In this document: positions 21,093 to 48,393 of the stretch, one piece after another
How the letters are laid out: each line of letters opens with the position of its first letter
How positions within the stretch are numbered: position 1 is the first letter of the stretch
Assembly: GCA_030068145.1 (NCBI GenBank)
Contig: JAPJBO010000078.1
Span: 124,001-188,000, forward strand
Length of the DNA: 64,000 bases
Origin: Diplonema papillatum
Lineage: Eukaryota > Euglenozoa > Diplonemea > Diplonemida > Diplonemidae
Reading direction: 5' to 3'
The notes under the pieces: generated by a model
What the model was told of the DNA's origin: nothing
Databases searched by the model: none
The model's input: the letters and a program-made list of their open reading frames with translations, nothing else
Program-made: the position numbers and the translations under genes

Positions 21093-24000
21093 TCACTCGA
21101 GCAAGCTCTCTGTGACGTCGTCCATGCCGTAGTGTCTGCGCAAGGGCGACGTCTGGCGGCCGGGGAGCGCCGCCGACACGAAGAGCGGCGTGTGCGGGCG
21201 CAGCGCCGCGGTGATGCTGCTGCCCTTGAGGTTCGCGTACCGCCGGGCGTGCGGGGAAAGGGCCGCGACGCCTCCCCGCGCCGCCGCGGGCCCCGGCCGC
21301 GGCTTCGGCGGCGACATCTGCCCGCCACGCCGCACCGGCGACCCCGGAACCGACAGCCTCACCTTCGGCGGCGACAGCTGCTGCCCGAAACCGCGGTGCG
21401 CCGCCGATGCGGGCAGCATGCCGCCCGCCGCCGGCGCCCGTGTCGGGCTCACGCTCCGGTTCGTCCCGCCGCCGGCGCCCAGTCGCGTCGCGGTGGAGGC
21501 GCTGCGGAGGGATTCCGCGGGGGGTCGCAGCCTGTTCAACGAGTCGGCAGCAGAGTAGCGCAGCGACGACGGAGTGTACCGCTCGGCAGGGCGCAGGGGG
21601 CCTGAAAACCCGACGTCCTCGGACCCCAGCAGGCTCGGCTCGACGCCCCCGCCCGGGTTCCTCTTGACCACAAACGGCGACTCCTTGTTCCGCGGCGGGC
21701 TCCGGCTGCGGAACGGCTCGGGCGGCTGGCTCGACGACACCAGCACGCCGCTGTCGGCGGCGCTGCTCCCCGCCAGCGACCGCTCGCGCGACCGACTGCG
21801 CCGCGCCGTCAGCCGCGTTGGGTTCAGGTCGATCCTGTGGGGGGTGAATGAGGTGCTTGCGATCCGTCGTGGGAATTCCTACCCGGCCAACCGATACATT
21901 CCTGGAGAGCGTTCGTTTGCCTTTGTGGAATTCCTTTTCCCTCCCTCCCACCCCTTTGCACATCTTGCCGTGCGGCATTCGTCCCCCTCGTGCGAGGGAG
22001 CATCATTGAGTTCGTGTCCGCTGCATTAGTGGCGAGATCCGGGTGCGCTGGGTTCCCACCCTCCGTCCCCCGTGACCTCCTGGGCTAGCCTGTTCTCTCA
22101 TCAATCGTGGCTATCTCAGGGGTTACCCCAACGGAAGTGATTTCTCCCCTTTACCCTTTTCTCCTGAGCTGGAAAGACAGAAGCATGTGCCCATGCCTGA
22201 GTGAGTAGCCGGCGGAGAATTCTTCGCCCAAACCAACGCGCAGAAGAAGTTTGGACCTTAGATCCGAAGCTTGGACTCCAAAGTTTGAGCGTATTTTCTG
22301 TTGAACTAAGCCGGTTCATCCCTATCTCCTGGAACTGCATCGAAAGCTGGCGCTTGTGTGTGTTTTGTTTGTGCGTGCCGGTTGATCGTTTTCCCACTTG
22401 TATTTACCCTGTGTGTGTATTCAGGTAAGGAATTCTGATCAACCACCAAAACACGCTGCCGACGTCTTTTTAGCCTGCACAATACATTGAAGGGCAACCC
22501 ACAAGATTGTTAGTACTAAAAAAGAGGGAGAAATGGCGTACCTGCCAAGCCCCAGGTCACTGCGCATGAGGTGGAACGACGTCTCGAGCGCGTCTACTCT
22601 CTTGAACAGCTGCGCCGCGCGCGGCGTGGTCCTGGGGTCGAGGTCCACGTTGTAGTGCTTGAGCTCGTTGACCTCGTCCTGGAGCTCGAAGATCTTCGAT
22701 TTTACCGCGTCCAGCTGCGGCGAGCCCAGCGCCCCGGCGCCCGGCTGCGCGCCCGTCGTCGCCAGCTGCTCGCCGACGAGCCGCACGACTTCTTCGACCT
22801 GCGCGAGCGAGTTTTGGACGGTGACGTCGGTGCGCTGCCGCTCGAGCTCCATTTCGCGTAGCTCGGCCGTCTCCTGCTTGAGAGACTGCAGCTGGAGGTC
22901 GAACGACCGCTGGATCTGCTGGAGAGTCGACGACACGAGTGGATCGTCGCCGCGGACCAGCGGCTTGAACGAACTGGGTGACAAAGGCGACGTCCCAGCC
23001 GACCGTCTGCCCTGGGCCGCCGCGATCCGAGCCGACAACGGGGAGCCAGAGGGTGTCCTCCTGGGGGGCGTCGCGTGCCGGTTCAGTGCCGCGTCAATCG
23101 CCGCGCGCAGCGGGGACGACCGCCCCCGGCTGCCGCCGGCCCTGCTCGGCGACACGTCGGCCAGCCTCTCCGCGAGCGAGCGCCGCCCGCCGCTGTGGTT
23201 CGGCGACGACGGCGCCGAGAACGACCCCTTGCTCGGTGACCCACGCGGGGTCCTGAACCCAGGAGACCCGCCCCCCGCCCCGAAGGCGGACCGGTGCCTG
23301 CCGGGGCTTCCGGGCGGGGAGAGCGAGACTTCTCGCAGGCGCTCCCCGAGGCTCTTCCGGGGAGATCCGGTGCTGCCGCCTGCTTGCGCCGTGGGGCTCA
23401 GCGGGCCGGCCGCGTATCCTGAGAGTGAAGCCTCGGCAAGCCGCAGGGCGAGTGGCTTTCTGGCGGAGTGCGTGCCGGCTTGTCCGCCGCTGAATGCGGT
23501 GGGCGAGGCGCCGAAGGTCACGCGCTGCATCGAAAACGTCGGCGACACGCGCCCGAAGCGCCCGTCGGGGAACAGCGGCGACGCGGGCGGCGACGCGAGC
23601 CCGCGCTTCTCCGGGGACGACGTGTACACTTCGTGGATGCGGTCCTTCAGCGACCGCTTCCCGTCGAAGCCGGGGCTGCTCGGCAGGGGGATGGTGTACG
23701 GGGCACGGAGGACGGCCGGCGGGCTGGAGGGCCGCGGGGGGCGGTGGAGGGATCCCTCGTTGCTCTTCCGTTCGAGGTCGCGCTGGGCGCGGACGAGGGT
23801 CTGCAGCTTCTCCTGCAGCGCCGCCTGCCGCCGGCTCTCGTCGCCGCCGGCGGTGACCATCTGGAGCTGGACACGCTTCGCCTGCGCGGCGGCGGTCGCC
23901 TCCTTCGACTTGCTCTCGCGCTGGGCAGCGAGCACAGTGTCCAGCTTCGCTTCCAGGTCCTCCAACCGCTTCGTGCGCTCGGTCGCGTCGATGATGCCCG

Positions 24001-27000
24001 TCGGCTTCGCCGCCTTCAGCTGCCGCAGTTCCCGCTCAAGCTCCGTGGCTTTGCTCCTGTGAGCCTCCCGCTCCTGACGGCTCTGCTGCTGCAGCGTGGT
24101 GAGATCTGTCGGGGGGGGCGGACGTTGCGCTTGGTGCTGGTTTTGAGGGAAAAGGAAGAGATGTGAAAACGGAGACAATAAATTTTGCGGTGGCTGCCTC
24201 CTCCGTTCTTTTACACTCGTTCTTTACTCTACTCACACAGTTAAACTTCGCTTGAAATTACGGGGGGTTCGGGTCTCCGTGTGACCGCTGTTAAATGGGT
24301 TCTCTCAGAGCAAGTCAGGGCTATGTGGTTGTATATTTGGTGGACACTTTCGTTCTGGGTTATGGCTAGCCATGTCCGGTACTGTTTTGTGACCGACGCC
24401 AAGTACGTTCCTTCGAGGAGGCTTGAGGGATAAGTGCAGCTCCTGCAGAGCCGCCTGCCGCCGGCTCTCGTCGCCGCCGGCGGTGACTATCTGCAGCGAC
24501 CCGCTTGCGCCTGCGCGGCGGCGGTCGCCTCCTTCGACTTGTTCTCCCGCTGTGCGGCGAGCAGTGTCCAGCTTCGCTTCCAGGTCCTCCAACCGCTTCG
24601 TGCGCTCGGTCGCTCCTGCCGGCTCTGCTGCTGCAGCGCGGTGAGATCTGTCGTGGGGGGGGAAATGCAAGAACGTGCTTCCGAATGGGTATGTGCTCAA
24701 CACCGCACGGGTCCCGTCTGCGCCGTGTTTCGGTCCTTTAAGCCACGGACACATAAGGCGGACCATCATCAGCGCGGAACCTGAGTGTCTGCAGACAGGA
24801 CTGCGGTGCAGGCGGCTGTTCGTAGCTCGTCACAGCCAGGACCACCCGTGCTACTAGAGCACAGGCGAATCCGTCACGGGGGGAGAAAGGCTTTTTGGAG
24901 TCGGAAAAGGGGGTTCGTTTCTCGGTCTTCGTCTCAGGTTTCGCTCTTGAACGCAGACCAAATCAAAAGCCAGAGCTCATCAGTGAGTCCTTTGGATTTG
25001 GGGGGGGAAATCTTAGTTTCGTGTTCAGGCGCTACTTGCCTCTCATGTGTTTGGTGCTAGCATCGTTGTTTCTTTGGGGGGGGGGGGGGGGGGGGGGGGG
25101 GGGTGAATCGAAAGAATCGATACCGGCGAACTTTGCGTTGAGCGCCTGCTTCTCGTCGCTGACGCCCTCGTCCATCTCCTTGCGGAGGTCCTCGATCTGC
25201 TGCTCGAGGAGCCGCTGGCGGAGGGTCTGCGCGTCGCGCTGCTGCTGGGCGGCTTCCTGCGACGCGGTCAGGGCGCTCAGCTGCCTCTGCCACGCAGCGA
25301 GCTGCTTTTCGGCGGCGGCGGACGGCGCGGGGTCCGCCTTTGCGGCGTCGATCGACTTCTGCAGCACGGCCACCCGCGCCTCGATGTCCCTGCGTTGCGC
25401 CGAGTTCTGCTCGCGGTCCCGGACGGACGCGGACTGCAGCGACGAGAGCGCTTGCGCCCTCTGCTCCTGCGCGAACAGATCCGAGTCCCCGCCTTTGTCG
25501 CCGGTGACGAGCGCCCGCAGGAGGGCTATCTGGTGCATGACGGCCCTGTTTTGGTCGACGACGGCCGTTTCCGTCGCCTCCAGCGACCCTTCCAAGTGCT
25601 GGAGCCGCGCCCGCTGGTGGGCCATCACTCCATAGAGCTCGGACGTCGCGGCGTTCAGCTCCTCATGCGTGAGCCGAACTCCAGTGGACGACAACTTGTG
25701 CATGGGGCTCGTCGGAGGCGGCGGCAGGGTTGAAAGTCTTGCCTCCAAGCTCGCGAACTGGCTGCGGAGGTTCGTGACGTCGGTTGCCTCGCGTTCGCGG
25801 TAAAGCGACCGTTTGACCGTGTCGCGGTCCCAGTCCATGAACAGCGTTTCGAGTTGGTCGAGACGGGCCTTGAGGTTGCCCTGTTCCTTCAGCTGCGCGC
25901 TGCCCAGCACGCTGGACCCGGACTGCACCTTCAGCAGCTGGTTGATGACCTCCGTTTCGAGCTCGGACGAGCGGAGCGCAGCGTCCCGCTCGGTCGCGAC
26001 GAGTCGCTCTTCGAGTTCGGTGACGGACGAGGCCAGGAGCTGGCCGTGGCGGAGGGAGGTCTGTTCGAGGTCTTCCAGGGCCTGCACGATGATGGCCTGC
26101 TTCTCCTCCGCCTTCCTCGACTGGTCGACGACAACCTCCGTCGCCTCGGTCAGGCGAGCTTCGAGAGCGGCCACCCGAGGCTCGTTGTTCACAAGGATGT
26201 TCTCCACCTCGTCTATTCGGCCGCCGATGTCTTGCGTGGCGCCTTCTCCCGTCATCGCGACTTGTTCCAGGTCCGTGATACGGTTCTCACACTGCGAGTT
26301 TTTTTTAGTGTTTTCCGGCGAAATACCTTGTGATGAACGAATTGCCGATATATCGTACTACACATCCTTCGTCCGCCGCTTGATGCAAAAGTCGAAGGTG
26401 GAACGACCAAGCAGGGATGCTGGTGGGTCTGTCACTACGGTCGACAGGTGCGGAATATTGGACAGACTCTCTGCTTTCTACCCCGAAACCAGCCCAACTA
26501 ACACGGACACGGTGCGTCGTGCTGCACCACGGCCTGCAGCATACAGTTGTCTTGGGCTGTTCTTTCACGGTCTGTCCGGAGGGGATGGGCCGGCTGACGC
26601 TCACGAGAAAATAAACGTTGTGGAGTATGCACACCTCTTTGACGGAAGCAGCTTGCTCCAAAGCGACGTTTTCGAGGTCCGCCACCTTTTCGGTTACCTG
26701 ACGGGAGTGTGGTTTTCGAGTTTTTTAGGGATTTCGAAGGACTGGTGGCAAGAGGCCCAAAGCGCATGCTCCTTCCGATTGTACGTCAGGGGGGAGGGCT
26801 GCAATCACATCGCGGTTTGGGCGCGGTCTGTCGAGCTGGCTTCAGTGTTTTCGAGTGTGACCGGCATACCGATTGCAGATTACCGACGTGTTCAACGACA
26901 GCAGTGTTGAGCTCTTCAATGCGGTCGTTGATCTGTGCGCGTTTTGGAGCATTGGTGGATGCCCTTCTGAATTCACCCCCGTGAACACATAATCGTTCAT

Positions 27001-30000
27001 GTCTGTGGTAGGATCACCACAGAAGATCGTTTCAAAGTCTTCGTGCGTTGGGAACAGAAGATTGAACATGGCCGTGTTGTACCGCATCAAGCTGCCCGAA
27101 GCGCTGTTCCTAGACTGGTTGTTTTCTTTCAACTCTCACAAGGGACTCGCGGCCAGTTAATTAACTGTCCAACATCAGTCGCAGAAGGTTCGTCGCATGT
27201 CCCGTGAGGAGTTTGACCAGGTCCCGAAGCTGCCTTCAGCACAACGCGCCTAACACAAGAATGCAGCCCTAAATTGGTGTGCGTGCAGTCATCCACCACA
27301 TGCCCTATATTTGCCGCGTAGCACGGTCAGGCGGGAATTGAAAAGGGCAAAACAACTGCGTCCCTGTTACCCGATTCAACTGCGGTTGAGGATGGTGACG
27401 CCAATTTCATCGACGGGCTTATCGGCTCCCGGAACGATGAGCCAGCGCGCGGTGGTCATTTAGAACTGCAGAAGAGCATACGTCATCTGGGTGCAGCGCT
27501 GCGGCCTGTTCGACCATGGCATTCTCGAGGTCTGCGATCTTTGTCCCGAGCTGTGGTGTAATGTTGGCGGTAATTTAGAGCGAAAGTTCGCTTGAGGATC
27601 CGTTCCAAAGTCTCACCTGACCATCGTTGAAAGGGTTCCTCATGGTCTATCTTTATTGTTGGTAGCAGCAGTGCATGTACGCGTGGTTGCGTCTTTGTTG
27701 CCTGTCGCCGATGTATGTAGAGCGCGCCCTCATCTCCTGTTGACTAGTCACATTCGGGTGCTTGCGACAACCGACATTTTGTCGGAAAGTTGTTCTTCTT
27801 GAATAGTGGAGAGACTGACGAAACTCGGTTGCTTCGCACAAAGCCCTGGCCACACGTTTTGACCACCGGAAACAACGGAGGGGATGAGAGAAAGAAGTGC
27901 GTTGTTTTGTTTGAGGAGATGCGACAACGGAGGTTTGCCCGGAGGCTTTTCGTGTTCGTGTAATTCGACAGATGCTTTTGAGCGATATTTGTGTCTAGGT
28001 TTTCGTTCGTCTTCTTGCAGTGCTAGCTTGTGGGTTTTCACTCCGGTGAGATTATAGCGGCGGAATTGTGGCGCTATGCGAATCCCGAATCGAGCATTGC
28101 ATGCTGCGCGCCCTACCGTGGAGCGAACTTGTATCTCTCGAAGCTTCACCAGCTTCGGCTGACACCATTTGCGCACTTAGCCGTGGTTGAGGAAGAACTC
28201 GGTTGAAGTTCAGGCAGAACGTTAAGTAGGCAAGAAGAAATGTGAAAAGGGAGAGGGAGGAATGCCGGTACGAAAGCATGTGCACACCGTTTGCGTCGTG
28301 ACCGAGCCATCGATGAGCTCTTTCTCGACGTCTTCGATTTTTTCATCAATCTGTGGGGTTGGGTAGGGTGGGATCCTTTGGGCAGCTTGCATTGGGACTG
28401 AGAGCTGAATCTCTTTGCACGGGCAGCGCATCCGCGCCGTGAGCTTGCTTACTTTAAAACGAAAGAGTGTGTGCACTCCGTCCGTAGGGTCCATTCCACT
28501 AGTTCAAGAAGGCGGAGGCTTTGGTCTGGATATCAATTCTGCAGGGTGAAAGATTGTTCATGGGATACCTGTTGGATGCTCTCTACAGTCTGCCTGAGTG
28601 AGTCTTGCAGAGACGTCCTCGTGGCCATATAGTCGTGCTCCAGCCCGTCGAATCGAGAAATGGTCTGTGTGCAGGTTGCGATTGAGGTCTGGTGCAAAGC
28701 CCCGTCCATCTGGTGCCCTGGCGGCATCTGGAGAATGCCTGCAAAATCGGGGGGTCAAGCTTGGGCCAAGCTTTGTGCGAGCTGGCGCGAGCTGGCAGGT
28801 CTGCGGGCCAAGGCCACCGATTTCCCACTAAATGCATCACGCCGGTGGCGTACTGCTGGGCAACCAAACCGCCCATTTGAACATACCTGCTCCACAACGC
28901 TTTCGACAGCATCGAGTCGCGACTTCGAAGCTATTCCATCCTCGAGCTGCGTGGGTTTGTGCGGTGGAAAATTCTCGAGGGACTGCCTTGTGCTCATTTC
29001 GAAGGAGGAGAAAACAATACAACTACAAAGTGGGTCTTTTTTTGTTGAACGCGTACGCCCGCCACTAAACCCAGATTCACCTGTGTTTCGTGTGGGCTAT
29101 AGCACATTTACCTCCTTTGATCTATCGCAACTGGCTGTCTCCTCAAGGACTTCCTACAAAGCGGGTGCTTATACAACAATAGAAAACGAACCAACTGTTA
29201 ATGATCTTTGTGTGTTTGCCACATTGTTTGTTTGTGCGTATGTGCTATCACCTGTATGGTAATTTCCACAGTACGCTGCCAACCGTCACTTTTTGATAAT
29301 GACAACCGCGGTTGTTTGTTTGTGCGGCCAGCAAGGGGGAAGGTGGGAGGACGCGCACCTTTTTCCGCAGCTCCGCTGAGAGGTCGGCGTCCAAGCCGGC
29401 GAGCCCGGCGGAGCCCTTGGAGAAGTGCAGCTCCTGCAGCTGCTCCATGGTGTGCTTCCGTAGCTGCGAGTGCGACGTACTTAGGTCCTCGAGCTGCGAT
29501 CGGGCGTCGGCCCAGTGCCGCTTCGCGGCTTCTTCGATCTCGCTGCAGCGTGTGTCGATGTACCGGCGGCTGCCGTCCTCGACGTCCTGCACCCGCGTGT
29601 TGGTCTCGGACAGCCTCCTGTCGACGTACCGACGGATGCCCACCTCCTCCAAGCCGCCGCCCGGGTGAATGCTCATCGGCGAGCCGGTTCGCTCCGCCGA
29701 CGACGCGCGCGACTGCCGCATGAACCCGGACTGCTTCGCGGCCGCGGGGTGCGCGGGGTGCAGCTTGCTTTGCTGCTCGACCGTGTGCTCCACCTGCCGG
29801 AGGCCGTCGTCCAGCTGCGCCATGAACTCGTCCACCTTCCGGTAGTTCTCGGCGAAGCGCCTGCGCGTTGGGGGTTTCCGGCGTTTTTCGAGGGTTTCTT
29901 TTGTGTTTTCGACGATCCGTTTGGGTAGAGATTGGTATCTTTTTTCAGGCTTTTTAGTACTAACAATCTTGTGGATTGCCCTTCAATGTATTGTGCAGGC

Positions 30001-32836
30001 TAAAAAGACGTAGGCAGCGTGTTTTCGTGGTTGATCAGAATTCCTTACCTGAATACACACAGGGTAAATACAAGTGGGAAAACGATCAACCGGCACGCAC
30101 GAACAAAACGAAGCGCCTGTCTTTTTTGGCGTTTATTGTGGTTTAGAGGTTCGGTGGTTTAGGGTCTCCGGTTGACCATTGAGGCTGGGAGGCGGGTAGT
30201 ATGGGGGGGTTTTCTAAGTACACCCTCGAGCGTGTAGATTGGGCAAGAACGAGCGGGAAGAGAATAGGCTCAGTGATTGTTTGTGGGTGGCGGGGGGGGA
30301 CTGGGGCTTGCTGGTGACTGAGCAAGATCGTTCGGTTAATCGCCTCCCGGACGTTCTTTTTCGAGCGTCACAGGTGCACAGTATCACTGCAGTGTCGTCG
30401 CGACGTCACTGCAGTGTGACCATACACACTGGAAGGGCATACTTTTCTAAGTCGCCCATGGTCGAGTGGGACGAGCCTATCTTTGCCGAAACTTCAGTGA
30501 GCTCTCGCTCCAGCTTCGCGTCGACGGCGTCGAGGCGGCTGTCGGTTTCTTCGCGCATTTCGAGCTCGGCTTGCTTCACTTGACGAGCGACCAATTCGAC
30601 TTCCTGCGCCATCTTCTTCTCAAGCGTCGGCATTGCCTGCACGAGGGAGGTGCGGTTTTGGTGAATGTTGAGGTGGCAACTTTTGAGAAGGCCTTTTTGG
30701 ACCGGCTTCTTTGTTCCCGCGGGTTCAGCCTCCAGCTCCAAGTTGGCAGGCGTTTGAAATAAGCAGATGCTGTACAGTGTTCTGACCACTACTGTGCTGG
30801 GTCTCGTGTTACTGGCTCCCTGCTGCAGAGAAAACAATCCTGGACGTAACTGAAAGGAGATCGTATATCTCGTCATGATTGCCAAACAAGAAAGTGAGAG
30901 TCTCCTGAGCTGTAAGGGGACAGCAAGAGCGCGCGGCGGGACAAACCTGTTCGAATGCAGTAAGCTTGGCGACAATGTCGTCTGTGACGCTCTGCTCTGT
31001 ATTGATCGCGTTCGTGATGTCTGTGACGGAGCTATGGGCGCGGTGCAGGGCCGTCTCCATTTCATCTACCTTCGCTTCAAGCTCTTGCACCCTGCCTCCC
31101 ATGGCCTCTTCGCCATGCTTGAAACGGTTCGAAAGCCCGTTCAGGCTCGTCTCGGCCGTGCCTTCGACCGACAGGATCTTGTTGGTCATCGAGGCCACGT
31201 CCGCTTTCACGGAGTGGACGAGCTCCTGGTTCGCGGCGTAGATGTTGTTGTCGATTTCTTCCTTGAGCATGTCGAGGGCTTGTTCGAGCTGGCCGGTGAC
31301 GGCGGTGCCGATGGCGGCGCACACGTCGCGTGCCCTGCCGCTGGTGTTCGAGGGCCCGTGGAGGAACGCCTTGCGGAGGTCGTCGAGGGTCGAGTCCTGC
31401 GCGATCTGCGCGGTGCTGTTGACCAGGTTCTCGGTCTCGATGCGCATCGACTCCAACGCCTGCTCGAGCTGGCCGGTGACGGCGCTTCCGATGGCCCCGC
31501 ATACGTCGCGGGCCACCATTGACGCGGTCGACGCCGCGTGCGGCGAGAAAGCCCGACGCAAATCGTCGAGCGCCGCCTCGTTGCACTGCTGCACGGCTTG
31601 CTCGATCTGCCCCGAGAGGCTGAACCCTGCGTGTTTGTATTGTGTCTAACAAATGCAAATTGTCAAGAACAAACCCCGATCGATGGCAGCCATACCAATC
31701 CTCACTCCCGTTAGATGAAAACAAAACAGGTTTGAAGGAAGTGCGCGCACAAACATACTAACTGGTGTGTTCGAAACGTTGGTGTTTCAAAGCTCCTTTA
31801 AATGATATGTGCCGGTTAGGTCGTTCGTGCTTTTACGTTGTTCACTTTTATCACTTTTCGATGCACATGCGTGTAGGACAAAGCGAATCCCTTCGCGTTT
31901 GAGTATCTCCGCTTGAAGCGACACTGTAAGCGGACATCTGCGAGAGAACTTGCATTGGGATGGGTGGGCTACAAAGAACGGCGAAGTGGTGAGACAAGTT
32001 TCAGTTGTAAAAAAGAGAGGGGTTGGACGAGCTAGAGTGCAGAGGCCATCTCTCCGGGGAGTTTCCGGTCTCTTCGTGTCGCTTTCACAAAGAAAATGCA
32101 CACCGATGGCTGCGCAGACGTCTCGGGCTTTCGACGTTGGCGGGTTCGATGGGTGGGGCGCCAACGCCTTCTTCAGCTCTTCGAGCGTGTTCTCGACCGT
32201 CTCCGCCATGCCCCGCTCGATCGCCTCCGACAGGGCGATGATCTGCTGCTCGGACCGGCTGCGGTCGTTGCGCGCTGTTTCCTTCACGTGCTTGATCTGC
32301 GCCTCGACGCCGTCCATGAACTCTTTCGACTGCTCGAAGAACAGGTCCAGATTCGCCTGTGCCGTCGCTAGTGAGCCCGGCTGTCCGGCGAACCCAGCAG
32401 GCGACTGTCTGGCGGGGCTGGTCAATCGGTCGTGGTGTTGGGCCATGCGAGACGTGATGCCGCTCGCTTCTAGGTCTGCGAGCCGTTGCGATAGATTCGA
32501 GACTTCCCGGCGGAGGGTGATGACTTCGGAGTCGGATGCGGAGCCGTCGTGGAGGGGCGCCAAGGCGCCGGGGGGGATCTGGCCTTGGACCTGCGCTTGG
32601 AGCCTGCCGAGCACGAGTTCGCAGCTGTCGACCTTCGTGATGAGCTGCGCGATCTGCGACGCCGCCGCCTTCTGCCGCTGCTGCGACGCGGACTCCACGG
32701 CGGAGAGGCCGCTGATGCGGTCCTTCCGCTCCTGCGTGATCGACACGCGCACGTCCGCCAGAGACTCGGTCAGCTGCTGCAGAAGCCCGTCGGCGAGGAT
32801 CGGCTTCATGCGCTGCTGCTGGGGCGACATCGGCAT
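21093..32836 (-). CDS. Large coiled-coil protein, 13 exons, about 2019 aa
   Basis: Reconstructed from GT-AG sites with phase kept at all twelve junctions. Exons in transcript order: 32836-32104, 31626-30947, 30636-30443, 29860-29359, 28946-28887, 28727-28569 (start could be 28709), 28350-28288, 27550-27482, 26932-26870, 26697-26635, 26291-25124, 24105-22542, 21834-21093. The sum is 6060 nt. Residues 1-250 are Gln/Glu/Arg-rich coiled coil. About 225-345 holds three ARDVCxAIG repeats. Roughly 700-930 are 21-residue heptad modules. About 930-1340 is further coiled coil. The C-terminal 650 residues are Ser/Pro/Arg-rich with many SP sites and four [KR][KR]xLxxR[LI]xE motifs, ending with the stop after VTESLLE. 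Likely a cytoskeletal or scaffold protein; no named family recognised. A further 5' exon or a trans-splice site is possible (CTCAAG precedes the ATG). Confidence 0.85.
22068..22165 (+). repeat. Dispersed repeat, partner at 50876-50975
   Basis: TGACCTCCTGGGCTAGCCT, TTCTCTCA, GGCTATCTCAGGGG and TTACCCC recur in order at 50876-50975 with substitutions. Lies in intron 12 of the coiled-coil gene. Confidence 0.65.
22350..22523 (+). repeat. Inverted-repeat arm in intron 12 of the coiled-coil gene
   Basis: About 165 bp nearly identical (five or so differences) to the reverse complement of 29951-30116. Contains GTGCCGGTTGATCGTTTTCC, ACTTGTATTTACCC, TTCAGGTAAGGAATTCTGAT and ACAAGATTGTTAGTACTAAA. The partner arm sits in intron 3 of the same gene. 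Confidence 0.9.
24240..24400 (+). repeat. Strand-biased GTCTCCG element, form B, in intron 11
   Basis: GTTAAACTTCGCTTGAAATT, GGGTTCGGGTCTCCGTGTGACC and TTAAATGGGTTCTCTCAGAG, followed by the tail TTATGGCTAGCCATGTCC, TACTGTTTTGTGACCGACGCC. Same long version as at 14973 and 53742; antisense to the host gene. Confidence 0.8.
24437..24655 (-). pseudogene. Pseudo-exon: decayed copy of the start of exon 12 within intron 11
   Basis: Matches exon 12 from its 5' splice junction (CCCCCACGACAG before ATCTCACC) through the LEDLEAKLDT region. It lacks the ATELERELRQLKAAK-coding part and carries small deletions that shift the frame. The duplicated acceptor with its C-rich tract is kept, so it could compete with the true acceptor at 24106. 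Orientation is the same as the parent exon, and it lies about 330 bp upstream of it in the transcript. Confidence 0.9.
24664..24800 (+). repeat. Dispersed GCAAGAACGTGCTT repeat
   Basis: GCAAGAACGTGCTT, TATGTGCTCAACACCGC, GGTCCCGTCTG, GCCGTGTTTCGGTCCTTTAA and GCGGACCATCATCAGCGCGG. Closest partner at 53232-53365, more distant ones at 49151-49290 and 61790-61930, all plus strand. Falls in intron 11. Confidence 0.75.
25076..25103 (+). repeat. G28 homopolymer in intron 11
   Basis: About 28 uninterrupted G on the plus strand. In the transcript it is a C-tract starting about 20 nt after the 5' splice site of intron 11 (exon end 25124). Preceded by a dispersed repeat piece at 25003-25048 (CTTAGTTTCGTGTTCAGGCG) shared with 46738-46785 and 61678-61730. 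Confidence 0.9.
26635..28946 (-). other. Cluster of 60-69 nt phase-0 exons coding heptad modules
   Basis: Exons 5 and 7-10 of the coiled-coil gene: 28946-28887 (60 nt), 28350-28288 (63), 27550-27482 (69), 26932-26870 (63), 26697-26635 (63). All start and end at codon boundaries. The products follow one pattern, hydrophobic-xx-K/R-I/V-x-D/E-L/V-E: IDEKIEDVEK, LGTKIADLEN, INDRIEELNT, VTEKVADLEN, and the start of exon 11, CENRITDLEQ. Exon 6 (159 nt) is also symmetrical. Confidence 0.85.
27573..27630 (+). repeat. Strand-biased GTCTCCG element, form B, in intron 7
   Basis: TTTAGAGCGAAAGTTCGCTT, GAGGATCCG, AAAGTCTCACCTGACCATCG. Contains the perfect inverted repeat AGCGAA-AG-TTCGCT. Confidence 0.75.
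28976..29180 (+). repeat. Dispersed repeat, partner at 473-680
   Basis: Second copy of the element described at 473-680; lies in intron 4 of the coiled-coil gene, antisense to it. Confidence 0.7.
29951..30116 (-). repeat. Inverted-repeat arm in intron 3 of the coiled-coil gene
   Basis: Reverse-complement partner of 22350-22523, starting TTTTTAGTACTAACAATCTT and ending GAACAAAACGAAGCGC. Directly followed by a form A strand-biased element at 30130-30185. Confidence 0.9.
30130..30185 (+). repeat. Strand-biased GTCTCCG element, form A, in intron 3
   Basis: GCGTTTATTGTGGTTTAGAG, GTTCGGTGGTTTAGGGTCTCC and GGTTGACCATTGAGGC. Near-identical to 12208-12262. Confidence 0.8.
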
Positions 32837-43680: not shown

Positions 43681-43984
43681 CCGGGAAGGGGGGGAAGGCA
43701 GTCCTTCTGAAGTATTTTTTGGCCAGTTCTTTTAGCGTTTTTTTCTCTTTTTGAAAAGAGACGAAAGGGGCACCCAAGGTGCTCGCCGACGCACTCTCGC
43801 GGTGGTCATTGTTTGTTGTTGCAAAAGACAAGAGAAAACTGGAAAAGGAATGCTCAAAAGAAGGAAAAAGTGAAGAGCGTGCGGGATTCGGGTTAGGCGA
43901 GCGTTGTTGAGATGGGCGTGCGGGAGGTCAATATGCTGACTTTGTGATAGCACACGACTTCAAGTCGGTGCAAGCCCGCAAGAG

Positions 43985-44240
43985 CTTCTGCCCTATCAGC
44001 TTTTGACGGTAGTGTAGTGGACTACCGTGGCTGTAACGGGTAACGGGGAATTAGGGTTCGATTCCGGAGAGGGAGCCTGAGAAACGGCTACCACATCTAA
44101 GGATGGCAGCAGGTACGCAAATTGCCCAATAGCAACACTGCTGAGGCAGCGAAGAGAAATAGCCTCGACACGTATTTAGTACGTTAGAAGCAATGGATGA
44201 TATCTAAACCTGTCAATGAACACAATTGGTGGACAAGTCT
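43985..44240 (+). rRNA. Partial small-subunit rRNA, dispersed fragment
   Basis: Carries the SSU core: CTTCTGCCCTATCAG, GTAACGGGGAATTAGGGTTC, GATTCCGGAGAGGGAGCCTG, AGAAACGGCTACCAC, GGCAGCAGG, GCAAATTGCCCAAT and TTGGTGGACAAGTCTG. GAGGCAGCGAAGAGAAATAG, CAAATTGCCCAAT and GTGTAGTGGACTACCGTGG are the forms seen in Euglenozoa. It covers roughly the region from the start of the universal GAGGGAGCCTGA block to just before the 530 loop; the 530 loop (GTGCCAGCAGCCGCGG) does not follow. Upstream to about 43925 may still be SSU. GGTACGCAAATT differs from the usual GGCGCGCAAATT, so it is probably a pseudogene copy. No other rRNA is present. Confidence 0.85.
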
Positions 44241-46850: not shown

Positions 46851-48393
46851 GGGGAGACGGCGGGAGGGCATGGAAACCTGAACATGGGATCGGTTCTTTG
46901 GGTGTCGTTCCTTTCTCTTTAATTGTCTATTTGTGCTTCGTGTTTGCGCACGTGTGTTCATCCACTTTTTCACGTCTTACACGGTGGAGTCCAGCCTCAG
47001 AAGCTGGAGTTAACGCTGACGTTAAAAAAGCGGGTGTCAAGCTACTAAATGGTTCGGTGGGTCTTTCGCCCCTGTACCCAGTTTTGACGAGCGATTTGCA
47101 TGTCAACACCGCAACGGACCTTCACCAGGGTTTCCCCCGGCTTCGTCCTATCCAGGCATAGTTCACCATCTTTCGGGTCCCAACAAGTGTACTTAACCTC
47201 AAATCCCTTTCCAGTAAATCAGGATCGGGCTGTGCTGCGTCCTCAAGGATTGGCGCATCTCCCTTTCAGTGCGGCTTGTGGGTTTGACACTCTAAGCCTC
47301 GCACACGTGTTTGACTCCTTGGTCCGTGTTTCAAGACGGGTAGTAGAAGATCGCTGTGTCTGACATGAGCCTGCGAGCGTTTAACCACGTCAGGCCAGCG
47401 GAAGCAAGGACGTTGTCCGAAGACGTCGACACTTACCCTTCGCTGACGATGCCGCAGGTCACCTCCTCAACTCTTTCCTATCCTGGTCGATCCGAGCAGA
47501 ACTGAGGCAGCCGGCAAGCCGTCTCGCACCAGAAGCTTGGACGATCCGAATAGGTCCAGGCGTCTCAACCATAAACCCCACTGAAGGAGCAATGACTAAG
47601 ATTTGAACGCATCGGGCTGTGCTGCGTCCTCACCCCCGCGTTTCGGGTGTGGATTTGCAGGCGGTTTGGTTGGAGCACACCGGCTTTGTGGGTGGGACTC
47701 GGGCACCCTCTTTAACTCCGGCTTCTGAGGCTGGACCTCACCGTGTAGTTTTCTGCTGTTTTCTGCAGTTTTCTGCTACTGCGTCCTTTTCGACCCCCCC
47801 ACCGGGTGGGCGTGCATTGGGGGGGTGCAAGCGCCAAGAAGGCAAGCGAGCACTAAGGCTGGGGGGGCCATTTTCGCCTTTGCGACGGTAGATATCTCGA
47901 GGAGCACTGCTTGCTGAAGACGACTTGTTTTACAGTGTACACTTAGAACAATAGAGAAGTCCTGTCTTTTTGCCCGTTCCTGGACCCATTCATTCTCATG
48001 AGAAACTTCGCAACGTCTCGTGCCTATCGACGCCGAGGCATATTGAAGAGCGTGGTCTCTGCACCCACGGGGAGAGCACGACTTAGCAATCGTGACTTGC
48101 CGGCAGTGACCTCTCGACAATCGCAAACCGTAATCGAACTTGGAATTGCACTCTCATCATAGAGTGCAAGCAAACCACTCGGCTGCTTGCGCAGTGGTAT
48201 CAGAGGTTCGCCTTTCGTTTGAAATTCCGCATGGGGTTTTTTTATTTATTTTGCAAAGCAAACACCCAAGGCAACCGCAATGCGGAAAGGCAAGCGGTTG
48301 TGCGAATTGTTTTCTGGCTGGTTTCGGGATGGGGCGAACATCGACGGTACTGGCATTGCTTGCATTCTATGACACTGAAACGGACCAGGACTT

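Follow-up and report, generated by a model that had tools for sequence, protein, structure and literature searches.

A small-exon array of coiled-coil modules in a Diplonema papillatum gene, probably grown by duplication of a symmetrical exon

Background

Duplication of exons is a known mode of growth of repetitive proteins, and two described systems come closest to the case that we report. In fibrillar collagens, the exons coding for the COL domain are 54 and 45 base pairs (bp) long, and 63-bp exons are found in some non-fibrillar collagens (PMC4450265), whereas in the protist Tetrahymena, leucine-rich repeat (LRR) genes contain consecutive 90-bp exons of one length and one phase, for which duplication has been invoked (PMC6564038). 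The array described here lies in a gene on the minus strand of a 64,000-nucleotide (nt) stretch of the genome of the diplonemid Diplonema papillatum, a single-celled marine flagellate of the Euglenozoa (assembly GCA_030068145.1, contig JAPJBO010000078.1, positions 124,001 to 188,000; hereafter, the window, within which all positions are counted). It resembles the collagen genes in having small exons that are multiples of a structural repeat, an apparent growth by exon addition and, possibly, later fusion of some of the exons, but in collagens these features pertain to an animal Gly-X-Y triple helix with a 57-exon ancestral domain (PMC4450265), rather than to a heptad coil with four modules on separate exons. 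Likewise, the Tetrahymena genes encode leucine-rich repeats in phase 2 exons that number more than 45,000 and include recent expansions (PMC6564038), whereas the array is in phase 0, confined to one gene, and old. All three appear to reflect the same kind of event.

In D. papillatum, with a genome of 280 Mb, one-way gene clusters, and about 3600 scattered pieces of 28S, genes are reported to contain 1.6 introns on average, the expert-confirmed maximum being 20 (PMC10161547), so that a gene with at least 10 introns would be unusual there. The kinetoplastids, the sister lineage of diplonemids, are extremely intron-poor, and six diplonemid draft genomes exist (PMC12621601). The array is a small, clear case from outside animals and ciliates in which the length of exons matches both the reading frame and the periodicity of the protein, and the presence or absence of the module exons across the diplonemid drafts could date the events and tell exon duplication from later intron gain. 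Among the papers listed for coiled-coil exon duplication in the open-access literature, we did not find this case, and none was returned for exon duplication in diplonemids; the case may nonetheless be in print.

A family of 21-residue modules

We identified seven related modules of 21 residues, which align without gaps from residue 1 and share the signature K/R-I-x-D/E-L-E over three heptads. Four of these occupy separate exons, namely, the first 63-nt exon (28288..28350, IDEKIEDVEKELIDGSVTTQT), a 69-nt exon (27482..27550, LGTKIADLENAMVEQAAALHP followed by DD), and the second and third 63-nt exons (26870..26932, INDRIEELNTAVVEHVGNLQS, and 26635..26697, VTEKVADLENVALEQAASVKE). The other three follow one another, unsplit, at the start of the long coiled-coil exon (26103..26291), where the initial annotation, in which this is exon 11, had already placed a continuation of the pattern. 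The same annotation had listed three 63-nt blocks along with one of 69 nt and one of 60 nt, all of which are indeed there on the minus strand, open, preceded by AG and followed by GT; its extension of the heptad pattern to all five holds for four. Homologous in-frame modules are present in the 63-, 69-, 63-, and 63-nt exons and where the long exon begins, and are absent from the 60-nt exon (28887..28946, LEDGIASKSRLDAVESVVEQ), which is coil-like, with its motif, R-L-D-A-V-E, starting at residue 10 instead of 4, that is, six residues late, and, by eye, one residue fewer afterwards.

The likeness of the modules exceeds that of random heptads. Our main null consisted of 10,000 draws of windows that were taken from the same protein, did not overlap, and matched the modules in heptad register; it is strict because the true repeats encoded by exons 1 and 2 lie within it. 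The total for the five modules that directly follow an acceptor was 262, compared with a null maximum of 166, and that for all seven modules 464, compared with 145, so that neither was reached in any of the 10,000 draws; two smaller subsets of modules were matched in 1 and 4 draws, respectively. Against the same null, every one of the 21 module pairs yielded p<0.03 (range 0.001-0.03). The modules resemble each other beyond the hydrophobic core as well: when residues were shuffled within modules, with those of the core and the flanks kept apart, none of 20,000 shuffles reached the observed total in any of three module sets. When each was scored with a profile built from the remaining four, the five post-acceptor modules obtained 10.2, 19.3, 8.6, 17.0, and 12.2, and a six-frame scan of the window recovered seven matches above 9 bits, a threshold that would overlook weaker modules, namely, the five modules on which the profile was trained and two segments of the long exon. 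The gene model behind the profile scores still contained a 42-nt block that is rejected below and that does not alter the frame; the register-matched draws omit it.

The splice sites bear a fixed relation to the modules. Five consecutive acceptors (28350, 27550, 26932, 26697, and 26291) directly precede module residue 1; three of the four module donors come after residue 21 and the fourth after residue 23. Given the alignment, the fourfold recurrence of one codon position in 21 would, by a rough estimate, occur by chance about once in 200,000 cases. Register prediction on the joined protein, proposed in the initial annotation, assigns heptad position d as the best-fitting start to the four 63- and 69-nt exons and to the initial 63 residues encoded by the long exon, so that the five module acceptors all coincide with position d. 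Over the 105 residues encoded between 26932 and 26103, the hydrophobic period is 3.50, a value without shuffle control. The earlier claim that exon length conserves both the frame and the heptad register is valid for the three 63-nt exons, and fails in register for the 69-nt exon, with 23 residues ending in HPDD, and for the 60-nt exon, with 20.

Gene model and coding status of the small exons

The 11-exon model begins with exon 1 (32104..32836), which has a start codon at 32836 and an open frame and ends in phase 1, and continues with exon 2 (30947..31626), exon 3 (30443..30636), which ends in phase 2, and exon 4 (29359..29860). Next come the 60-nt exon, a doubtful 96-nt exon (28569..28664, beginning TISRFDGLEH), the four module exons, and the long exon (25124..26291), all on the minus strand. 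The long exon has a possible donor after 25124 (CCG^GTATCG); if this is not used, its frame stays open until a stop slightly below 25035. Read to 25035, the 11 joined exons encode 1260 amino acids (aa) with no stop. Joining 25124 to 24105 in phase 1 may extend the frame, judging from the sequence, through a possible last exon (22439..24105), which encodes a coil and then a Ser/Pro-rich tail, to a stop at 22439, yielding a longer protein. Within the tail, at 23659-23153 on the minus strand, there are four spaced motifs, such as KRSLKDRIHEV and RRSLAERLADV, which are candidate short binding motifs.

Introns 1 to 3 are in phases 1, 0, and 2, and all seven of introns 4-10 are in phase 0; the codon-complete introns described initially are thus found throughout the array, whereas outside it introns 1 and 3 depart from this. 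Between exon 4 and the long exon, the seven donors are GTGCGC, GTATGT, GTATCC, GTGTGC, GTATGC, GTATGC, and GTGTGC, and all seven acceptors end in CAG. These signals are close to those reported for Diplonemidae, namely, a donor (G)/GTATG (three species) and an acceptor CAG (four species), in a study of six species that did not include D. papillatum (PMC12621601). We infer that the proposed junctions are used in splicing.

The coding status of the small exons was assessed with a codon-use score, for which exons 1, 2, and 4 and two neighboring open reading frames (ORFs), both including codons upstream of the first ATG, provided the training set; the control comprised 75 open AG..GT blocks, 54-99 nt long, from the introns of this gene. 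Four of the six small exons (the 60-nt, first 63-nt, 69-nt, and third 63-nt exons) scored above all 75 of these pseudo-exons, and the score of the second 63-nt exon was matched by two. That some of the small blocks are unused, or serve only as optional cassettes, seems highly improbable in light of these scores and also because a search of 28946-26635, in which 40 of 1266 candidates were scored, placed repeats in intron 7 only. What speaks for it, and to that extent against the array as reconstructed, is a set of low scores: in absolute terms, 0.3 for the 60-nt exon, -2.3 for the second 63-nt exon, and -3.0 for the 96-nt exon, the last being matched by 4 of the 75 pseudo-exons. Pointing the same way, a 42-nt block at 29153-29112, which has good signals and an open frame and had been taken for an exon 5, turned out to sit in a dispersed repeat and was dropped, all 29 other fetched copies of the repeat aligning over it; its score was matched by 5 of the 75, so that the 96-nt exon is not clearly superior to a known repeat. 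The acceptor of the 96-nt exon was picked from several for its CACAG, and the same choice sets R-F-x-x-L-E at the module position; its 32 residues equal 21 + 11.

Three heptads of coil span about 3 nm. As all of the small exons leave the frame intact and three also maintain the register, the length of the rod could be stepped by splicing, and the array would then be a set of optional cassettes that adjust a flagellar or cytoskeletal ruler in approximately 3-nm increments, a prospect that we rate as very unlikely.

Origin of the array

Tandem duplication of a symmetrical exon, followed by divergence, is probably what gave rise to this small-exon array in what would be a long coiled-coil scaffold protein, presumably of cytoskeletal function. 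Under this scenario, an ancestral exon of 63 nt, coding for three heptads in phase 0, would have been duplicated in tandem; since 63 can be divided by both 3 and 21, each added copy would spare the frame and the hydrophobic stripe. The copies would then have diverged to synonymous saturation, the end of one of them would have moved 6 nt downstream to produce the 69-nt exon, and the modules that head the long exon would have lost their introns or never had any. The similarity of the modules is thereby attributed to duplication, as their sequences suggest, and the presence of five acceptors at one module position argues that exons were copied together with their flanks rather than separated by independent insertions. 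Other duplications occurred within the gene, as seen from a repeat of about 60 aa in exons 1-2 and from a defunct, incomplete duplicate of the possible last exon. Growth by duplication of a symmetrical exon, as put forward in the initial annotation, hence stands as the best reading, with the shared acceptor position and the likeness outside the core in its favor, albeit as an old event, covering four of the five exons then proposed, with three in exact register.

Several observations weigh against this conclusion. The four split modules alone were matched in 1 of the 10,000 register-matched draws, and the likeness among the modules is modest except for the pair formed by the 69-nt and the third 63-nt exons, which are identical at 10 of 21 residues. 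The 96-nt exon fits poorly, with a profile score of -7.5 and pair scores of -8 to 16, and both this exon and the 60-nt exon favor heptad registers other than d. Across 201 residues, the hydrophobic periodicity peaks at 3.46, a peak equaled in 10 of 2000 shuffles, and its power is low at exactly 3.50. The array is known from the DNA of one species alone. Conceivably, the modules converged, a three-heptad coil with an Ile/Leu core and charged flanks tending to assume this look and the small phase-0 exons being coincidental; consistent with this, an unsplit piece of coil in the long exon that lies outside every module obtains 13.1 on the full profile, more than three of the five modules obtain against the others, and individual pairs are no better than p 0.001-0.03. 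Such convergence appears rather improbable, however, considering that the five- and seven-module totals lie above all of the 10,000 register-matched draws and the totals above all of the 20,000 core/flank shuffles, and that five acceptors share one module position.

The age of the copies can be gauged from the five post-acceptor modules, among which identity at codon positions 1, 2, and 3 is 0.50, 0.59, and 0.30, respectively, compared with 0.287 expected at the third position from base composition. Synonymous sites are thus saturated, with the protein pattern retained. Pairwise alignment of the array introns, a check suggested in the initial annotation, revealed no significant similarity, the best E-value between different introns being about 0.1, which adds to the observations against duplication just listed. 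With third positions at chance and the introns dissimilar, any module duplication would be old; the sequences bear no sign of a recent origin, which pertains to the age of the array and not to its kind.

The dissimilarity of the introns also bears on the possibility that the coil came first, as unbroken 21-residue repeats in one exon, and that introns were inserted afterwards at module boundaries. The three modules at 26291-26103 that are still unsplit fit such an order of events, and so do exons 1-2, where an intron interrupts only one of the three ~60-aa repeat copies, showing that introns need not travel with repeats in this gene. Nevertheless, late insertion would require five events at one module position, the introns are unrelated, the junction sequences have, by eye, no common motif, and the dispersed repeat in intron 4 stops short of the intron ends, so that we regard this history as unlikely and retain tandem exon duplication as the preferred explanation.

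Relatives of the protein

Searches for paralogs, with the 528-aa rod and exon 2 as the queries, returned none in the 271-Mb genome (2910 contigs): the best non-self match of the rod had an E-value of 0.34, and the only matches of exon 2 were to itself and to the copy of its repeat with which exon 1 ends. No match below E 0.049 was obtained in the Protein Data Bank. In Pfam, none of the families scored above the cut-off with exon 1, exon 2, the long exon, or the possible last exon, the queries used; the nearest was WD40_alt, with 23.7 bits compared with the required 25. Tropomyosin (PF00261) has the heptad coil in common with the long exon and matches it weakly, at 17.3 bits, under the cut-off of 38.6, the coil being the only feature compared. 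The paraflagellar rod family has at least 30 matches in the D. papillatum genome and none in the 14 control genomes.

Repeats and neighboring genes

The ~60-aa repeat, ARDVCAAIG..GQLEQAL, is present in three copies at 32218-31210 on the minus strand; the phase-1 intron 1 splits the first copy, which is carried on across the AAIG^F join, and exon 2 holds the two further copies. Between the copies of exons 1-2, 57 nt are 86% identical. Just upstream of the possible last exon, a partial tandem copy of its start (24440..24647, minus strand) retains the acceptor and is disrupted by a deletion, a shifted frame, and a stop; its pieces are 93% (178 nt) and 94% (50 nt) identical to the exon. A 161-nt repeat, with 96% identity, is located at 30109-29951 in intron 3, with an inverted copy at 22362-22522 at the possible end of the gene.

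Intron 4 (29358-28947) contains a dispersed repeat of about 220 bp (28960..29187, minus strand), the one that includes the exon-mimicking 42-nt block and that, with its open AG..GT block, is a trap for gene prediction. Genome-wide, there were 1172 first-look candidates for this repeat, of which 40 were scored; the 29 fetched copies are the best-scoring ones and include two pairs that seem to be identical. An introner-like origin of intron 4, the only intron examined in this respect, was suggested by a query that started at the GT and was rejected when flanks were added, given that the ends of the repeat miss those of the intron. Intron 7 harbors pieces of dispersed repeats (27890..28196, minus strand), which recur elsewhere adjacent to each other in the opposite orientation, with at least 65 matches outside the window.

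Elsewhere in the window, there are gene fragments of small-subunit (SSU) and large-subunit (LSU) ribosomal RNA at 43795-44157 (plus strand) and 47038-47313 (minus strand), and a gene for a HAD-type hydrolase (Pfam PF13344, 65.6 bits) at 36905-35535 on the minus strand. Two related ORFs, at 8684-7101 and 2764-1142 on the minus strand, presumably encode MFS sugar transporters. The five other ORFs inspected, which were selected from the minus strand, are on that strand as well.

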